This document shows, in pieces, positions 13,670 to 23,306 of a DNA stretch of 29,157 bases (positions are counted from its first letter, which is position 1; each line of letters starts with the position of its first letter). The translations under genes and the position numbers were made by a program. A model generated the notes under the pieces. That model made no database searches. It was given only the letters and a program-made list of their open reading frames with translations, and was not told where the DNA came from. Origin of the DNA: a virus; IMG/VR virus record IMGVR_UViG_3300021475_000044, positions 1 to 29,157 of that record; one strand, given 5' to 3'.

Positions 13670-15394
13670 TTACTCGGCTTTCGGCTTGATGCCGTTTCTG
13701 GCGTCGTTGTAAATCTTCTGGATCTTGCTGAAATCGCGCGTCGGGCCGTTCACTCCACGGCCAGCGGACGTGATTGCCGCCGTGTCCCGGGCGGTCGCCG
13801 CGCGCCCGAAGTCGCTGTAGCTTCCGACTGCCGTGCGCGAAGTACGCAGCAGCCTGCGGACTTCGGCGTCATACGCCCGCCGTACCGCGAGGTCTCGCGA
13901 TCGCGCGATCGCGGGCTTGATGGCGTTCAGGAATTTCACCTCTCCGCTATCGATGGGAGCCATGTCGAAGGCGCGCATGAGAGCCTTCTTTTCCCTCGAT
14001 TTTTCAATCACGGGCAGCAGCGCGGCCGCAGCATCGTTAGCCATCGGTATCTCCTCTGTTGGTGTTACATCGGCTTCGCCAACCGGCTCGAGCAATTCCG
14101 TGCCGGGTTCCGGATCCACGTCGTCTTCCTGATGCTCCGGTTCCTCTGCTTCTTCGCTCAGGAACTGGCTCACAAGGTCCTTCAACTCCTCCACGTCCGC
14201 GTCTTCGCCTTCGAGCGGGCCATGCTTCTGCTCGTGGGCGTCATAGAGCTTGTCGAAGGCGTCGTGCATACGCTTCCGGTGATCGCCGCCGTCCGCGTCA
14301 TGGGCGCCGCGATCCAGACCCTCTACCGCCGGTTCCTCTTCGTCCTTCGCCTTCGCGCACTTGTCGGCCGTGCAGTTCTCATGGCCTTCTTCGCCGGGCA
14401 TGCAGATGCCGGCGTCTTTGATGCGCTTACGCATGTCATCGGCGCGTTTGGTCGCGTCGTCAGCACGCTTCTTTTCGTCGTCGGCGCGCTTCTTCTCGGC
14501 GTCGAGCATGGTCTTGACCGCGTCATCGGCTTTGCGGTCTTCGCCCTTTTCCTTTTCCTTTTCCGTTTCTTCTTCTTCTTCATCCAGCGCGCGAGCGCCG
14601 GAGAAGGCCATCGTCGCCAGTTCCGACGCTGAAGCACCCTCGGTTGCTTTTGCCTTCAGGCCGGCTCCGAACAATTCGCGCAGTGAATCTTTAATGCTGA
14701 ATGTCTTAGCCACGTTCTTCTCCTTGCTTGGATTACCGTCAGGGATGCTTTTGGCTTGCGTATCTCCGGTCCACGCCGCGGCTTCGACCAGACGCAGTTC
14801 GTCAGTGGTCTCCGCGGCGGCGGAATCATTGATGCGGGCCTCCGGGCCTGCCCGGCCTTTCGGCACGACGGCGCAGTGATTGATCACAAAGCCGACTTGC
14901 AGAATTTTGTCGCCATCGCGAGCGAGGTCGTAGTTGTAGCCCAGCGATAGCTCGCGGAGCCCTCCGTCGACCTTGTTGATCAGCTCGTGATCGTTGATGA
15001 CGATGTCTCCCTCGAGCGGCCAGTCGCCGGAATCGAGAGAGGTTGAACCTTTACGAACGTTCTGGATGTGCCCGCGGGCATGCTCGCGGAAGTTTTCCGG
15101 AACGACGAACTCGGACGGATGGCCGTCCGTCAACGGCTTGCCTTCGGCACTCAGGATCGTCTGGTGCGCGAAGACTTCCTCGGCTGGCCGGTAGACGCTG
15201 ATCGACGCGCCGGGATTGCCGGTCTCGATGCCCAGGCCGCGCAGCTTCTCTTCAGGGAAGTTCTTGAGCAGCTCGCTGACGATGTACGTCTGCCAGCCGG
15301 TACGCGCGAGGACGCTGCCACGGCATACGAGAAAGCCGTCCGGCGTCTGGCCGATATTCTCCGAAAGCTTCGTAGCATAGAAGCCGGTTGCCAT
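13670..15394 (-). CDS. Prohead protease (DUF2213-like) fused to scaffold region
   Basis: A 574-residue protein. Residues 1-~190 look like DUF2213 proteases: TDGHPSEFVVPENFREHARG, a D-x-I-x-D strand (GDIVINDHEL), then LRELSLGYNYDL. Residues ~228-320 form a highly charged coiled coil (EKKRADDEKKRADDATKRAD) typical of scaffold. The C-terminal part from residue ~451 (MANDAAAALLPVIEKSREKK) is helical and basic. Two in-frame internal start codons have good ribosome-binding sites (see 14711-14725 and 14042-14057). The protein should cleave itself and head proteins during maturation while its C-terminal portion guides shell assembly. Confidence 0.78.
   Translation of the reverse strand: MATGFYATKLSENIGQTPDGFLVCRGSVLARTGWQTYIVSELLKNFPEEKLRGLGIETGNPGASISVYRPAEEVFAHQTILSAEGKPLTDGHPSEFVVPENFREHARGHIQNVRKGSTSLDSGDWPLEGDIVINDHELINKVDGGLRELSLGYNYDLARDGDKILQVGFVINHCAVVPKGRAGPEARINDSAAAETTDELRLVEAAAWTGDTQAKSIPDGNPSKEKNVAKTFSIKDSLRELFGAGLKAKATEGASASELATMAFSGARALDEEEEETEKEKEKGEDRKADDAVKTMLDAEKKRADDEKKRADDATKRADDMRKRIKDAGICMPGEEGHENCTADKCAKAKDEEEPAVEGLDRGAHDADGGDHRKRMHDAFDKLYDAHEQKHGPLEGEDADVEELKDLVSQFLSEEAEEPEHQEDDVDPEPGTELLEPVGEADVTPTEEIPMANDAAAALLPVIEKSREKKALMRAFDMAPIDSGEVKFLNAIKPAIARSRDLAVRRAYDAEVRRLLRTSRTAVGSYSDFGRAATARDTAAITSAGRGVNGPTRDFSKIQKIYNDARNGIKPKAE
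14042..14057 (-). promoter_or_regulatory. Internal ribosome-binding site and in-frame ATG in protease-scaffold gene
   Basis: AGAGGAG (14051-14057) lies exactly 6 bases before an in-frame ATG (14042-14044). Translation from here would give a separate 124-residue C-terminal protein beginning MANDAAAALLPVIEKS and ending at the stop at 13670. The arrangement is like nested scaffold genes inside protease genes (lambda C/Nu3). Confidence 0.55.
14711..14725 (-). promoter_or_regulatory. Internal ribosome-binding site and in-frame GTG in protease-scaffold gene
   Basis: AAGGAG (14720-14725) lies 6 bases before an in-frame GTG (14711-14713). Initiation would give a protein beginning (V)AKTFSIKDSLRELFGAG, just where the protease domain ends and the scaffold-like region starts. 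Together with the site at 14042 it divides the long gene into three modules. Confidence 0.5.
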
Positions 15395-15439
15395 TTTGTT
15401 CTGGAGTTGAAGGGAAGGAAGGGTAAAACGGAACTGCTT

Positions 15440-15730
15440 TTATTTCTGTCTTTGGCCCCACGAGCCGAGCGACTCGAGACGGAACATAGAACTCTGCCAT
15501 CGATGGGGTGCATTGGATCTGCGAAGCGCCTCGTTAAGCTCATTGACCTCGGGAAGGCTTTTCCTTTCGCGAGCTTCAATGGCATCGGTTTTGGTGTTAA
15601 CGAGGTACCACATTGTTTTTTTGACTGGTAACTGCCGCTCCCTTTCAAGTTGTTCCGGGGATATCTTTCCGGCGTCGCGACCCATGGGCTTTGCAGGGAG
15701 TCTGGTGCCGACGAACGACAGCGCAGCCAT
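15440..15730 (-). CDS. Small protein with N-terminal VGTR tag
   Basis: A 96-residue basic protein: MAALSFVGTRLPAKPMGRDA, then a helical charged part and SMFRLESLGSWGQRQK. Its first 12 residues match the start of the nuclease gene at 18737 (MATALSPVGTKIP). No domain recognised. The ATG overlaps the upstream stop (TAATG). It directly precedes the protease-scaffold gene and probably belongs to the same group of tagged accessory proteins. Confidence 0.6.
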   Translation of the reverse strand: MAALSFVGTRLPAKPMGRDAGKISPEQLERERQLPVKKTMWYLVNTKTDAIEARERKSLPEVNELNEALRRSNAPHRWQSSMFRLESLGSWGQRQK

Positions 15731-18603: not shown

Positions 18604-18740
18604 GGCTTCTTCGCGGGCTTGTCGCCCTCGTCCTCGCGCATGCCTTCTTCCATCGCGCGTTCCCACTGCTTCAGGTACTCATCCATCAGCTTGCGGTCCT
18701 CGTCGACGACTTCCGGCGGCGGCTTCAGATCGTCTCTCAT
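18600..18740 (-). CDS. Small charged 46-aa protein
   Basis: The frame reads MRDDLKPPPEVVDEDRKLMD, then EYLKQWERAMEEGMREDEGD and KPAKKP. Its ATG overlaps the nuclease stop (ATGA) and its TGA overlaps the next GTG, so it is stitched between two genes by coupling, which supports that it is real. It is acidic and probably helical. Function unknown; an accessory to the flanking nuclease or papain-like protein is possible. Confidence 0.62.
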   Translation of the reverse strand: MRDDLKPPPEVVDEDRKLMDEYLKQWERAMEEGMREDEGDKPAKKP

Positions 18741-19678
18741 TTGTAGGTGTACGTCCCCAGATAGGCCTTGTTAATAGCCGGGTTTACGCCCTTCTTGAGG
18801 GTCCACGGAATGCGGTCATGGAACCCGGGGAAGCTGAAGATGTCGACCGATTTCGTATCCGGATTGACGATGCAGGTTACGGTTCTCGCTTTGACCTGCT
18901 TGCCCAGCCGTTTGGTGAGCGCTTTGCAGAGATCGTTTTTGCGCTGCATGATCTCGCGGGATTTCTGCTCGTTATAGTCGCTGACGACAGCGCTCGCTTC
19001 CTCATGGGTGATGTCGCCGTTTTGCTCCAGCTCGTCTATCCGGTCTCGCCATTCTTTGTACTTCTTGCTGGTGCCGCCGATCGTCTGCCGCCAGTGCTGC
19101 GCGGTGTCGCTGTTCGATACGAGGCCGCTCTTGACCTCGATGCCTTCGTGATCCTGTATCAGATCGAGCGGCAGGTTATTACGTTTGGTGTCCAGCTCAA
19201 TCGGCGCGGGCCGTGCGTCTTTGAACTCGTGGTCCTGGAGGTACTGGACAACGGCCGCTTCGCCGATCCGGTCCGTTATCAGCTTGGCCCTTTTTTCGTG
19301 GATCCACGGCGTTTTCAGCTCCACTGGCTCGCCTTGAAACACGCGCTGCTTCGCGGGCTTGAGCGTTATGCCGGTCTTGTATCGGGGAAGCTTGCGCGGG
19401 CCTTCGCCGCCCCATTTCTTCAGGTTCGCGGCATACGTGGCCTTTTTCTTCTCCGCTCTCGGGTCGGCTTCCGGCTCGGTTACGCCCGGCTCGCCCTTGC
19501 TGGCGAACTCGCCCTTGTTCTCCGGCTGCCCGCGCTTGACCTTCGCTTCATTCCAGTCGAGCGCCCTGGCATACAGGCAGTCGAGCATGAGATCGACCGC
19601 CAGATGCCCGGCGATGCGCCGCGCATCCATCGCAACAGCCGGGATCTTCGTTCCGACGGGAGACAGCGCGGTGGCCAT
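18737..19678 (-). CDS. Tagged PD-(D/E)XK nuclease-like protein in head gene cluster
   Basis: A 313-residue protein with three short modules ahead of an enzyme-like domain: MATALSPVGTKIPAVAMDAR (1-20), RRIAGHLAVDLMLDCLYARA (20-39) and KRGQPENKGEFASKGE (48-63). The C-terminal domain (about 120-310) has Asp172 in LPLDLIQDHEG and Glu181-Val-Lys183 in GIEVKSG, the D...ExK pattern of PD-(D/E)XK nucleases, followed by a basic, helix-rich region. The KRGQPENxGxFASKG module also ends the portal. A nuclease among structural genes could be packaged and injected, or act in DNA processing; both are inference. Confidence 0.66.
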   Translation of the reverse strand: MATALSPVGTKIPAVAMDARRIAGHLAVDLMLDCLYARALDWNEAKVKRGQPENKGEFASKGEPGVTEPEADPRAEKKKATYAANLKKWGGEGPRKLPRYKTGITLKPAKQRVFQGEPVELKTPWIHEKRAKLITDRIGEAAVVQYLQDHEFKDARPAPIELDTKRNNLPLDLIQDHEGIEVKSGLVSNSDTAQHWRQTIGGTSKKYKEWRDRIDELEQNGDITHEEASAVVSDYNEQKSREIMQRKNDLCKALTKRLGKQVKARTVTCIVNPDTKSVDIFSFPGFHDRIPWTLKKGVNPAINKAYLGTYTYK

Positions 19679-19684
19679 GAGTGC

Positions 19685-19903
19685 TTAGTCGTCTTCGTCC
19701 ACAATCAATGGGTATGGCGGAACGTCCTTTGGTTCGATCGGTTCGAAGCGGATGTCATGATCACCGGGGTACGCCATCCTGTGATCGAACTTCTGCTCCG
19801 TGATTTCTTCGGGGATTCCGTCGGGGAAAGCGGTACAGCGGTCGATCTCCCGGTTGTTGCGATCGAAGTGGACGCAATTCATGCACAGCGGAACGTAAGT
19901 CAT
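19685..19903 (-). CDS. Small conserved phage protein with CxxC and PGDHxIRFEP
   Basis: A 72-residue acidic protein: MTYVPLCMNCVHF, then DRCTAFPDGIPEEITEQKFD and HRMAYPGDHDIRFEPIEP. I recognise the CxxC...C-AFPxGIPxEI...H...PGDxGIxFEP pattern from small proteins near phage portal and head genes. Three Cys and a His could bind a metal. It overlaps the metallopeptidase stop by ATGA. Function unknown. Confidence 0.7.
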   Translation of the reverse strand: MTYVPLCMNCVHFDRNNREIDRCTAFPDGIPEEITEQKFDHRMAYPGDHDIRFEPIEPKDVPPYPLIVDEDD

Positions 19904-21015
19904 AGCAGCGGGCCTCTGAATTTTTTGTACATCTCCATGACGTCCCCGCCATAGGCGCTGCCTGCCTTCATCCCCGCGAACACTTCCGCCACGAATTCCA
20001 TGGGGTTTTTGCCAGCATAACGGCTGACCTTCCTTGCGATCCGCGCTTCGTCTCCGCTGAAGCGCATCGACCTCAACCGGTCCAGGGTTCCGCTGTCGCT
20101 GTTGTGGTAGTGGGCTATATGCCCGAGTTCATGAAGAACCACGCTTGTCTGAGTCATCCATCCGCTTTCGAGCATCTCGCGCTGCGCATAGCCCGGAGTC
20201 CTCCAGACAGGGTGACCCGCATTGATGGTCATGGGCGGATGAGGAATGCCTTGAACACGGATATCGTTGACGAGCGCCATGGTCGGCGACAACGGTCTGT
20301 TCTGCGTATGGATCTGGTGCGGCATCACCAGTCCTTGTTCTTTATACTTTGCCAGTTGGCGATTGACCTGATTCGCCGTTTCCACGTCGGCGAGCCTGTA
20401 ATCGACATAGCGGATGCCAAGCGATTCGGCATGCGCGGTCGCCTGTCTGAGTGTTGTGGCTTTGCCGATATCCGGCGACACCTTCGTTTCCGCAGGCTTG
20501 GGAACCGGAGCTCGCTTCGGTGCTTTCGGGACTTCGCCGCCTTGCCTTTTTATTTCAGCGGCTACCTCGGCATACGTTTTGCCGGTTTGACGCGCGATCT
20601 CTTTGATGCGCCGGATCTTCTCCCAGGCCTTCTTTGAACCGGCTACCCGAGGCGGATCGGCGGGGCCGGGTGGCGGCGGCGGCGCCGGTGGTGGTGGAGC
20701 AGGCTTGACCGGCTTGGGCGTGGCGGGTGGGACTTTCGTTCCGACCGGCTTCAAGCCGACCGGCGGGGCCTTCGGAACCACTCCTCCCTGTTTTTTGATC
20801 TCAGCGGCTACCTCGGCGTAGGTCTTGCCGGTCTTCGCCGCGATCTCTTTGATGCGCCGGATCTTCTCCCAGGCCTTCTGCGCCGCGGTGCGCCGCCATT
20901 CCTCCAGCTTCTCGGGTGTAGGATCCTCCCGGTAAGCCTGCTCGGCCGCCTGAACCGGATCGCTTTCAGCAGGCGCGGCGGCCTCGGCCGGTTCAGCTGT
21001 CTTCAGGCTTTTTTT
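19900..21015 (-). CDS. HExxH metallopeptidase region, probably a frameshift extension of the portal
   Basis: The frame is open for 371 codons. The first possible start codon is a GTG at 20781 (giving 293 residues) with an SD-like GGAGG only 1 base away, too close to be efficient. The sequence upstream of it is clearly coding: it contains a second copy of the helical repeat KAWEKIRRIKEIAAKTGKTY found downstream. Order: acidic Ala/Pro linker, repeat, VGLKPVGTKVPP tag, polyproline, repeat, then a zincin domain with HELGH (H217, E218, H221 counted from GTG) and a likely third ligand Glu in NPMEFVAEVFAG. A -1 slip on the A run at 21009-21017 joins it to the portal. If the GTG is used, the peptidase is separate. 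Confidence 0.75.
   Translation of the reverse strand, partial: KKSLKTAEPAEAAAPAESDPVQAAEQAYREDPTPEKLEEWRRTAAQKAWEKIRRIKEIAAKTGKTYAEVAAEIKKQGGVVPKAPPVGLKPVGTKVPPATPKPVKPAPPPPAPPPPPGPADPPRVAGSKKAWEKIRRIKEIARQTGKTYAEVAAEIKRQGGEVPKAPKRAPVPKPAETKVSPDIGKATTLRQATAHAESLGIRYVDYRLADVETANQVNRQLAKYKEQGLVMPHQIHTQNRPLSPTMALVNDIRVQGIPHPPMTINAGHPVWRTPGYAQREMLESGWMTQTSVVLHELGHIAHYHNSDSGTLDRLRSMRFSGDEARIARKVSRYAGKNPMEFVAEVFAGMKAGSAYGGDVMEMYKKFRGPLL
20555..20633 (-). repeat. 79-bp direct repeat, copy 1 (in metallopeptidase frame)
   Basis: Matches 20801-20879 at 71 of 79 positions by eye, including an identical run of about 41 bases at one end. The 246-bp offset keeps frame (82 codons). It encodes a Lys/Arg/Ala-rich helical module (KAWEKIRRIKEIARQTGKTY). 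Confidence 0.9.
20801..20879 (-). repeat. 79-bp direct repeat, copy 2 (upstream of first possible start)
   Basis: Second copy of the repeat at 20555-20633. It lies upstream of the only plausible GTG of the metallopeptidase frame, which shows that the coding sequence extends beyond that codon. Confidence 0.9.
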
Positions 21016-23306
21016 TTACCCTCGCTTTCGCCCTTCGATGCAAACTGACCGGCGTTTTCAGGCTGGCCGCGCTTGATCTTCGACTCTTCGAAGTCGCGGG
21101 CCTCAGCCAGCGGGCCGACTTCCCCCAGCTCAGCCAGATCCGGCAGCTCCGCGCCGTGGGCATCCTCGAGGCGGTTAATGAAGTCCTCGAGCGTTACCTC
21201 TTCGATCGCCCGCAGGAAGTCCGGCGGGTACATGCCGAGAAACGCACGCTTCGCGTCCTCCTCGGCCGGGAAGCCGAGCATGATCTTGTCTTCGTCCTCG
21301 CGCTTGTCCACGTCAGGCCCAAGGTCCTGCATGTCGATGATGTAGACATTCGGCGCGTTCTCGACGGGGCCCAGGATGATATCGATCTCATCGCCGTCGC
21401 GCCCGACCGTATTACGGATGAAGCCGTAAGGATGCTTGACGAGATTGTCGAAGACGAGCTGGCCGCGGTCGTTATGGATCTGGCGCCGTTCGCCTTTCTC
21501 GTATTCGATCGAGAGTGGAATGCCGGCGAAGTCGAGATCGCGGTGCTCCTCGGCATGGGCCGCAACCGGATCGTCCACCTCCGCGTCCGCCGCTTTCGCG
21601 ACGAGTGCGCGGCCTGAAGGCCGTCCCATCTGCTGCTGCTTCGCCTGAACCTTTTCACCTTTGGCGCCCGCGCCGCCAGCCCCTATTTCCTTAGCGGGAG
21701 CTTGAGGCGAAGGCTCGCCTTCGTTCTTCGTTTCGCCTTCTTCGCCTTCGCCTTCTTCGCCGGGCGCGCCGCCTGCCAGTAATTGCTGTTGCTGCTGTTC
21801 CTGAACCTCTTTGGCGGCTATGTCTTCTTCCTCGGCCGACTGGACGTCCTCGTCGGTGATGTTGGTCCAGATGCCGGTCGAATCGGAAGACTGCTTCAGT
21901 TCGTTGAGCGCGATCCTCTTATTAATGATGCCGGCGCCGAACATGGAGACAACCGAATCGCCGATGTTCTTGGCGAGGGTAGCCCTCTCGTCCTCGGTGG
22001 GAATCCGGATCGACGGAAACGTCAGGTCGAGATCTTCCGGAATCTCGCCCAGCGTCGACATGCAGATCACGGGATAGAGCTGATCGAGCGCCGGCCGCAG
22101 CTGATCTTCCTGATCGGCGGAAATCTTCTCCTCGTACAGCCGCTCAGCCGGGTCGTCCTTGACGCCCATGCCGGCAGGGCTATGCCCGAACAGGCGCATT
22201 TCGGGGATCTCGGCCGCGCCGGAAATGACCAGCCGGAACTGTTCGAGAAGATCCGAACAGCCGGTGAAAGCATACTGGGTCTGCTCGAGCCCGCCGTCCT
22301 TCGGGAAGATCATCATACTGTTGTTGGAAACCATCTGATTCATGGCTTCCATGCGCTGATAGAACGCCTGCAGCGCCGCGGAATTCATGCTGACGCCGGA
22401 CAAGGCCTGCGCCAGCTCATCGAACTTGATGCCCAACAGATTTGCCCGGAAGCTCAGATTGAGCATGTTCCAGAGCATGTTGTCGAACATGCGGATCGCT
22501 TCGTAAGCGATCTCCAGCACCGAAATGCCCCAGTACATCTGGGCCTGATACTCAGGGGCCGGGACGGTGGGCCCGGTGAAGCGGAGGATCCGGCTCGCAT
22601 GGATGCGGAAGCCACGGGCGCCGCCGAGCGACTGCACCCGGTAGTGCTCAGGCAGGTTGAATTCGAGAGGCCGCTCGATGTCGTGAGCTATGTTCGTGTC
22701 GGGATAGATGCCGACCCAGCGGTCGAACGGGATCAGCCCGCGGTAAGACCCGAGCTCCACCGTGTCGTAGTCGAGCGGTTCGTCAAGACGGTTCTCCTGG
22801 CCGTCGATGACGATCAGAGCGCCGGCACCGCCGAACAGCCGCGCCCACTTGATGGTTTCGAGCAGCTTCGCTTTGGTCTTTGTGTTGCGGATCACGCGGT
22901 CAAGCTGTGTAAGGTCCTTCGGGTCAAGATCCGAAGTCAGCCGGGGCCACGCGCGAACCATATCCTGCGCCGGCATGTCCACGATCCGCCGCGAGATCCA
23001 GTGATTGCGGTAGAGCGTGTACATCAGCTGGTAGTCGTAGGACCAGCGGACGAGCAGATAATCGGCTGCTTCAGCTACGCTCGGGGTGCCGAAGCCGGTG
23101 CGCGCCGCCGCGTTGACAAAGGCATCAGTGGCGCGGCCTACCAGCGCGCCCTGTTCGTTGAACGGCACGAGGCCGGAATTGATGAGATTCCGGTCGTGCA
23201 TGGCCAGCGCGTTCGTCTGTCCCTGACGCGCATCCCGGGCGCGCTGATCGTAGAATTGGCGGGTTTCAGCAAGGCTGAGTTTCAGCCGTGGGCGCGGTGG
23301 GCTCAT
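21003..23306 (-). CDS. Portal protein (DUF1073-like) fused to inorganic-pyrophosphatase-like domain
   Basis: A 767-residue protein. Residues ~80-480 have DUF1073 portal features: LYRNHWISRRIVDMPAQDMV, then LPEHYRVQ, RIHASRILRFTG and FGHSPAGMGVKDDPAERLYE. A Gln/Glu/Gly-rich linker follows. From ~588 a second domain reads SIEYEKGERRQI, KHPYGFIRNTVGRDGDEIDI, EDKIMLGFPAEEDAKRAF, the pattern of the InPase domain known in phage polyvalent proteins. The end is ESKIKRGQPENAGQFASKGE and a poly-Lys tail encoded by nine As. The portal forms the dodecameric DNA gate in the head. The ATG has no strong SD; a divergent plus-strand gene starts 39 bp away. Confidence 0.83.
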   Translation of the reverse strand: MSPPRPRLKLSLAETRQFYDQRARDARQGQTNALAMHDRNLINSGLVPFNEQGALVGRATDAFVNAAARTGFGTPSVAEAADYLLVRWSYDYQLMYTLYRNHWISRRIVDMPAQDMVRAWPRLTSDLDPKDLTQLDRVIRNTKTKAKLLETIKWARLFGGAGALIVIDGQENRLDEPLDYDTVELGSYRGLIPFDRWVGIYPDTNIAHDIERPLEFNLPEHYRVQSLGGARGFRIHASRILRFTGPTVPAPEYQAQMYWGISVLEIAYEAIRMFDNMLWNMLNLSFRANLLGIKFDELAQALSGVSMNSAALQAFYQRMEAMNQMVSNNSMMIFPKDGGLEQTQYAFTGCSDLLEQFRLVISGAAEIPEMRLFGHSPAGMGVKDDPAERLYEEKISADQEDQLRPALDQLYPVICMSTLGEIPEDLDLTFPSIRIPTEDERATLAKNIGDSVVSMFGAGIINKRIALNELKQSSDSTGIWTNITDEDVQSAEEEDIAAKEVQEQQQQQLLAGGAPGEEGEGEEGETKNEGEPSPQAPAKEIGAGGAGAKGEKVQAKQQQMGRPSGRALVAKAADAEVDDPVAAHAEEHRDLDFAGIPLSIEYEKGERRQIHNDRGQLVFDNLVKHPYGFIRNTVGRDGDEIDIILGPVENAPNVYIIDMQDLGPDVDKREDEDKIMLGFPAEEDAKRAFLGMYPPDFLRAIEEVTLEDFINRLEDAHGAELPDLAELGEVGPLAEARDFEESKIKRGQPENAGQFASKGESEGKKKA
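21009..21017 (-). promoter_or_regulatory. A9 slippery run at portal stop: candidate -1 frameshift/slippage site
   Basis: Nine consecutive As in the minus-strand message (GGT AAA AAA AAA GCC TGA) lie 3 bases before the portal stop. A -1 shift, or transcriptional insertion of one A, gives GGT AAA AAA AAA AGC CTG and enters the metallopeptidase frame. The zero-frame product is 767 aa and the shifted product about 1135 aa. A missing A in the assembly would look the same. Confidence 0.65.

Follow-up and report, generated by a model that had tools for sequence, protein, structure and literature searches.

The portal protein gene in the viral DNA analysed here (IMG/VR record IMGVR_UViG_3300021475_000044, a stretch of 29,157 nt referred to as the window) ends just after a run of nine As, inside a linker whose second half opens a long coding region in the -1 frame with a predicted metallopeptidase at its end. 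The chances are about even that the two frames together specify one polyvalent portal protein, with slippage at the A9 run giving a short form and a minority long form. The order of such a chain would be portal, inorganic pyrophosphatase-like domain (InPase), GQFASKG linker, two short repeats and zincin-type metallopeptidase, and the one-base offset at the A9 run would interrupt its frame within the flexible linker.

The portal ORF (23306..21003, minus strand, 767 aa; ORF list and Pfam) combines a portal and an effector-type enzyme in a single frame, namely a Phage_portal_3 domain (PF06381, residues 97-452, 23018-21951 on the minus strand, E 1.7e-92) and an InPase domain in the C-terminal region (PF18823, residues 588-712, 21171..21545, minus strand, E 2.1e-23). 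These are followed by a KIKRGQPENAGQFASKG linker (21030..21080, minus strand) that ends 8 residues ahead of the stop. The C-terminus QFASKGESEGKKKA and its stop are encoded by GGT AAA AAA AAA GCC TGA, as the preliminary description had read them, with the A9 run, the proposed slippage site, at 21009..21017 on the minus strand (T9 on the plus strand) and the TGA that ends the short portal-InPase-linker product at 21003..21005 (minus strand). No homopolymer in the window is longer; three T7 runs come next. Since 0.14 A9/T9 runs per window are expected by chance and 12 of 100 shuffles contained one, the run is unremarkable by itself, and its noteworthy feature is the position one codon ahead of the stop. 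As in genes expressed by slippage, a homopolymer of at least nine A/T thus lies at the frame junction with a stop soon after (A9, GCC TGA), and the downstream frame codes without a usual start of its own.

That downstream frame (19900..21015, minus strand) is open for 371 codons and comprises the remaining linker, the two repeats, a Pro-rich spacer and the metallopeptidase. Its first ATG, GTG or TTG is a GTG situated 78 codons in (20779..20781, minus strand), in a poor start context with GGGAGGA directly abutting it. The stretch ahead of this codon (21005-20782) nevertheless codes in the -1 frame. Scored with the codon usage of the clear genes of the window, it reaches +24.6 bits in this frame (0.33 bit per codon), whereas the remaining frames score -51 and -45; the undisputed genes of the window have 0.19-0.34 bit per codon. 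It also holds most of the first copy of a repeat (KAWEKIRRIKEIAAKTGKTYAEVAAEIKKQGG, 20764..20879, minus strand), which lies mainly 5' of the first start codon, the second copy (KAWEKIRRIKEIARQTGKTYAEVAAEIKRQGG) being located further downstream at 20518..20633 (minus strand). The two copies measure 116 nt and are 83% identical, and their differences fall at codon positions 1/2/3 in the ratio 2/3/15 (38 codons; p = 1.7e-4), indicating past or present selection on the -1 frame in at least one copy, although the comparison alone cannot tell which copy was under selection. A non-coding spacer is ruled out by the codon score, the repeat and the third-position differences taken together. The preliminary description was thus right about an open frame of about 370 codons starting without ATG, GTG or TTG for about 78 of them, about the coding nature of this part and about a repeat of downstream coding sequence, which it had measured as 79 bp. 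It was less accurate on two details: there are two repeats, with no structure behind calling them helical, and the VGTK stretch that it had taken for a tag is part of the first repeat unit, within its tail.

The linker itself runs on across the break, with SKGESEGKKK before it and the Ala/Pro/Glu-rich SLKTAEPAEAAAPAESDP after it, similar to what is seen in fused relatives. The break therefore splits a linker whose second half heads the -1 frame and, to judge from the sequence, the peptidase is part of that chain. Joining the two frames gives a computed product of 1135 aa, the length previously estimated. No convincing family was obtained with Pfam on the -1 frame; Herpes_US12 and LysM matches (Pfam/PHROGs) were rejected, being matches to the Pro-rich stretch without a scoring stretch of their own.

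The metallopeptidase domain (19903..20280, minus strand) harbors an HELGH motif at 20133-20119 and a conserved EFVAEVF at 19998-19978. It had been described as an HELGH metallopeptidase, and the HELGH and conserved motifs are indeed there, whereas neither Pfam nor NCBIfam provides a family name. Its nearest named relatives form the C-terminal ends of two head proteins, in frame in both: the MuF-like protein of Halorubrum phage Hardycor1 and ORF39 of Halorubrum tailed virus BLv36, the latter a portal protein (Portal_Mu, E 1.1e-6). Further relatives occur in HGTV-1, in Brevibacillus phage Jenst (annotation: low-copy virion protein) and on a Streptomyces plasmid. Their common motifs are HExxH followed by YA..NP.E.VAE: of the six sequences aligned, the window and four relatives have the first and all have the downstream E...E motif, the plasmid sequence being a fragment that spans the downstream motif only. 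HExxH and the downstream acidic residues predict a zincin-type metallopeptidase. The single-sequence structure model (pLDDT 50) was too poor for a fold search, and the profile gave a weak match to PDB 4l7a (E 0.0064). Because this family sits in frame on the BLv36 portal and the Hardycor1 MuF protein, and because the portal clade of the window is often enzyme-fused, the peptidase is best explained as portal cargo whose frame is broken here. An orthologue with the same peptidase module was not found in that portal clade, and peptidase searches of viral and genome contigs gave no match. Other zincin-like domains are found near related portals. In a relative of the window (L098/L099) one of them (E 6e-4 to the profile) is encoded by a separate downstream gene with its own N-terminal helix, and a different motif, HEWGH, closes a 1486-aa Phage_portal_3 fusion read in one frame (L088:4106-8563), which also contains two linkers and two regions that are ADP-ribosyltransferase-like by eye.

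Relatives of the portal were collected by two pattern scans of IMG/VR, giving 69 and 80 loci, many of them in common or near-identical; they are mostly 41-62% identical to it over the portal. Several carry enzymes in frame: topoisomerase IB behind portal and InPase (L015, 1074 aa; L039, 1596 aa with an intein) or behind the portal (L020, L021), ADP-ribosyltransferase behind portal and InPase (L032, 1217 aa) or on the portal (L024), and a GNAT acetyltransferase (L066). The nearest relatives, L094 (58% identical, 1050 aa) and L095 (60%, 984 aa), consist of portal, InPase and linker plus about 300 residues in one frame, and by eye their tails appear akin to the topoisomerase tails. The modules are joined by a linker of the form ESxHPRxKxGxxAGQFxxKG, which is followed by 146-506 in-frame residues in 13 of the 16 distinct linker-bearing portal lineages. 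The three exceptions are the window (8 residues), L129 (29) and L058 (23); the last has no third domain, its next gene starts immediately, and its contig shows a further frame break within the portal. Natural short forms also exist, with L006-L010 stopping at InPase and a basic tail. In L024, L025 and L033, InPase has a gene of its own, which overlaps the portal-ADP-ribosyltransferase fusion at its end, so that modules also occur split into genes that have ordinary ATG start codons. Two portal genes (L039:5070-9857 and L053:4851-8405) contain in-frame inteins (Hint and LAGLIDADG matches). An A run or comparable slippery site at the linker junction was present in none of the homologues compared, which support the fusion of other enzymes in one frame and not a conserved A run. 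No match was returned by the InPase tail as the sole query or by the portal query in genomes, and a pattern tolerant of A-run length found no second contig of the same phage.

Fusion in frame being the rule among relatives, the true run may be ten As misread as nine, the gene then being a plain in-frame 1135-aa portal-InPase-peptidase fusion. The break falls at the longest homopolymer of the contig, and such singletons are usually errors, unclustered frame transitions with BLASTp support having been treated as mostly sequencing errors by Antonov et al. 2013 (PMC3711429). However, 186 kb compared between near-identical IMG/VR contigs contain 1 indel, a rate that does not capture homopolymer-specific error, and the window contig has no other frame break over the 9.8 kb of it covered by relatives. 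Random assembly error is for these reasons not the default, and we consider a misread A10 somewhat unlikely. By the precedents of tssM3 and dnaX, a run of ten As would still yield some short product, and either length is expected to give short and long products in differing proportion. The prediction of two forms is therefore less fragile than that of a programmed event.

The junction is also broken elsewhere. The sole indel between L054 and L053, which are 99.95% identical over 8,174 bp, is one G lost in L054 just before the linker, breaking its fusion, and it is this case that makes up the indel rate given above. At that rate, 16 junctions of 120 nt should together show about 0.01 frame breaks, so the breaks cluster here beyond what general assembly error predicts, on few cases and in loci not sampled for this purpose. 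Such breaks (the A9 run of the window, L129, L054 versus L053) might recur because they set the number of enzyme-bearing subunits per ring or toggle the cargo, an idea we consider rather unlikely. The base lost in L054, together with the complete lack of the third domain in L058, would also fit a real one-base deletion or run-length variation in the window that recently uncoupled the peptidase without rescue, making it decaying or phase-variable cargo. We find this improbable, as the -1 frame is intact over all its codons with gene-like codon usage, and the HExxH and EFVAE motifs are intact as well.

In L129, the domain found behind the linker of L012, L014, L016 and L053 lies in the -1 frame, and the sequence at the portal stop is CGCTGAAG, which lacks a slippery run; a break at the junction need therefore not mean slippage. 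The window and L129 share a CTGA at the portal stop, in which a CTG of the -1 frame (21004..21006, minus strand, in the window) overlaps the TGA and could be a non-canonical reinitiation start, preceded 12 nt upstream by GAGGG in the window and GAGAGG in L129. A separate peptidase protein could then be produced by termination-reinitiation from this CTG or, less likely, from the GTG at 20781. Overlaps of the ATGA/GTGA type are common at the portal stops of relatives (L006-L010, L012, L014, L016, L027 and L053), and the peptidase stop itself overlaps as ATGA the start of the next small gene (19685..19903, minus strand). But CTG start codons are rare, every TGA stop makes an NTG in the -1 frame, and the product would open with the second half of a linker, while initiation at the GTG would remove the first repeat and has no spaced Shine-Dalgarno (SD) sequence. 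We consider this origin of the peptidase quite improbable.

With slippage at the A9 run, normal decoding would give the 767-aa portal-InPase-linker protein, which resembles the complete short forms of relatives, and slippage would give the 1135-aa protein as a minority, either by RNA polymerase adding one A or by a ribosomal -1 shift on A_AAA_AAA. This slippery heptamer is in phase within the run, but a downstream stimulatory RNA structure is ruled out (z 0.29 versus shuffles), and inspection found no SD-like stimulator about 10 nt upstream, as only about 3 nt separate GAGGG from the heptamer. The lack of both favours RNA polymerase slippage, which we propose with moderate confidence, by analogy with known genes, as the route to the long form. 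In Thermus thermophilus dnaX, a run of 9 As leads to about 50% of the product being of the second length (PMC1088944). In Citrobacter rodentium tssM1, a run of 11 As shortly before the stop yields 20-25% of the long form and both forms are needed, tssM3 being the inverse case (PMC4256274). By these examples, nine As would be the length at which bacterial transcription slippage turns appreciable. We infer the occurrence and the level of slippage here from the anatomy of the locus and these precedents. As no relative has the A run, programmed slippage is unproven, and a slippage switch at this site is plausible but unconserved. The preliminary proposal that portal and metallopeptidase are joined by slippage is thus borne out in part, as regards a coding -1 frame that is part of the portal chain, but not as regards a programmed slip, which has neither a conserved A run nor an RNA structure behind it.

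Incorporation into virions would lead to a 12-subunit ring bearing a few peptidase domains, probably on the side of the capsid interior; slippage of the 10-25% class would correspond to roughly one to three of them per ring. The peptidase might process the linked domains or act in the host after entry.

The gene following the small gene downstream of the peptidase (18737..19678, minus strand) is cargo-like and has a KVKRGQPENKGEFASKG linker. It had been called a nuclease whose FASKG linker the portal fusion mirrors; the linker is present, and neither Pfam nor NCBIfam confidently places the protein in a family or names it a nuclease. A helix-like motif, D[RH][RK]ARLHRALD[RK]VLD, occurs in 23 distinct forms and in 0 of 1346 shuffled ORFs. 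It is located in the region of the DUF2213 head-maturation protease (gene 13670-15394, minus strand, in the window), in small neighbouring genes and immediately ahead of GQFAS linkers in free-standing cargo proteins (L098), the loci being the window (13719-15485, reverse strand), L002, L010, L012, L016, L020, L027, L053 and L098. Cargo not fused to the portal may use this motif as a tag for docking to the scaffold or for packaging. Looser versions (GHLAVDLMLDCLYA, GHMALDVMLDALYA and GHAMLDNFLDHVYA) were identified in the window genes 19678-18737, 16769-16365 and 16362-15730 (minus strand), and VGT-type stretches near the N-terminus are common to several small genes in the same three regions. 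After the portal-InPase gene of L098 comes a 716-aa protein (L098:5543-7690) that has two modules of helix plus linker and, at its C-terminus, a domain kinase-like by eye, followed by a separate helix-tagged zincin (L098:7938-9017). In L129, a gene adjoining the portal (L129:9368-10702) has a GQFTSKG linker and then an HEVGH metallopeptidase-like motif, and L083:6394-7677 has a NUDIX domain, the same HPRGQPENAGQFASKG linker and then an HEVNH zincin-like region.

The locus of the window is a polyvalent portal fusion, a known kind of phage protein. Iyer et al. 2017 described polyvalent phage proteins including portal fusions, with BcepF1.124 as a portal-InPase example, and proposed that metallopeptidases process such chains into functional units (PMC5512222); a cut at the linker common to these portals would extend that proposal by analogy. 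The portal-InPase fusion, a recurrent zincin metallopeptidase and the head-gene context are alike, whereas the peptidase of the window matches no Pfam model and lies in the -1 frame, not in one frame with the portal. BLv36 ORF39 and the Hardycor1 MuF protein likewise carry the same peptidase family C-terminally on a head protein; unlike the window, they have a continuous frame, no InPase, a portal of the Portal_Mu family and an archaeal host. Whether or not slippage occurs, the portals of this uncultured clade amount to a cargo rack, in which interchangeable enzymes are attached behind a GQFASKG-type linker common to them. Should slippage take place, a single gene would supply mixed rings in which a few subunits bear an enzyme, solving the problem of placing bulky cargo on a 12-fold ring without filling its surroundings. 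The window resembles tssM1 (A11) and dnaX (A9) in having an A run shortly before the stop and two C-terminal variants per gene, but slippage was measured there, and the locus of the window is known from sequence and its run is not conserved. In the lambda gpG/gpGT pair, too, a phage morphogenesis protein is made at two lengths in a set ratio, by programmed frameshift. In lambda the shift is ribosomal, widely conserved and concerns a tail chaperone, whereas in the window it would concern a portal with an enzyme tail.
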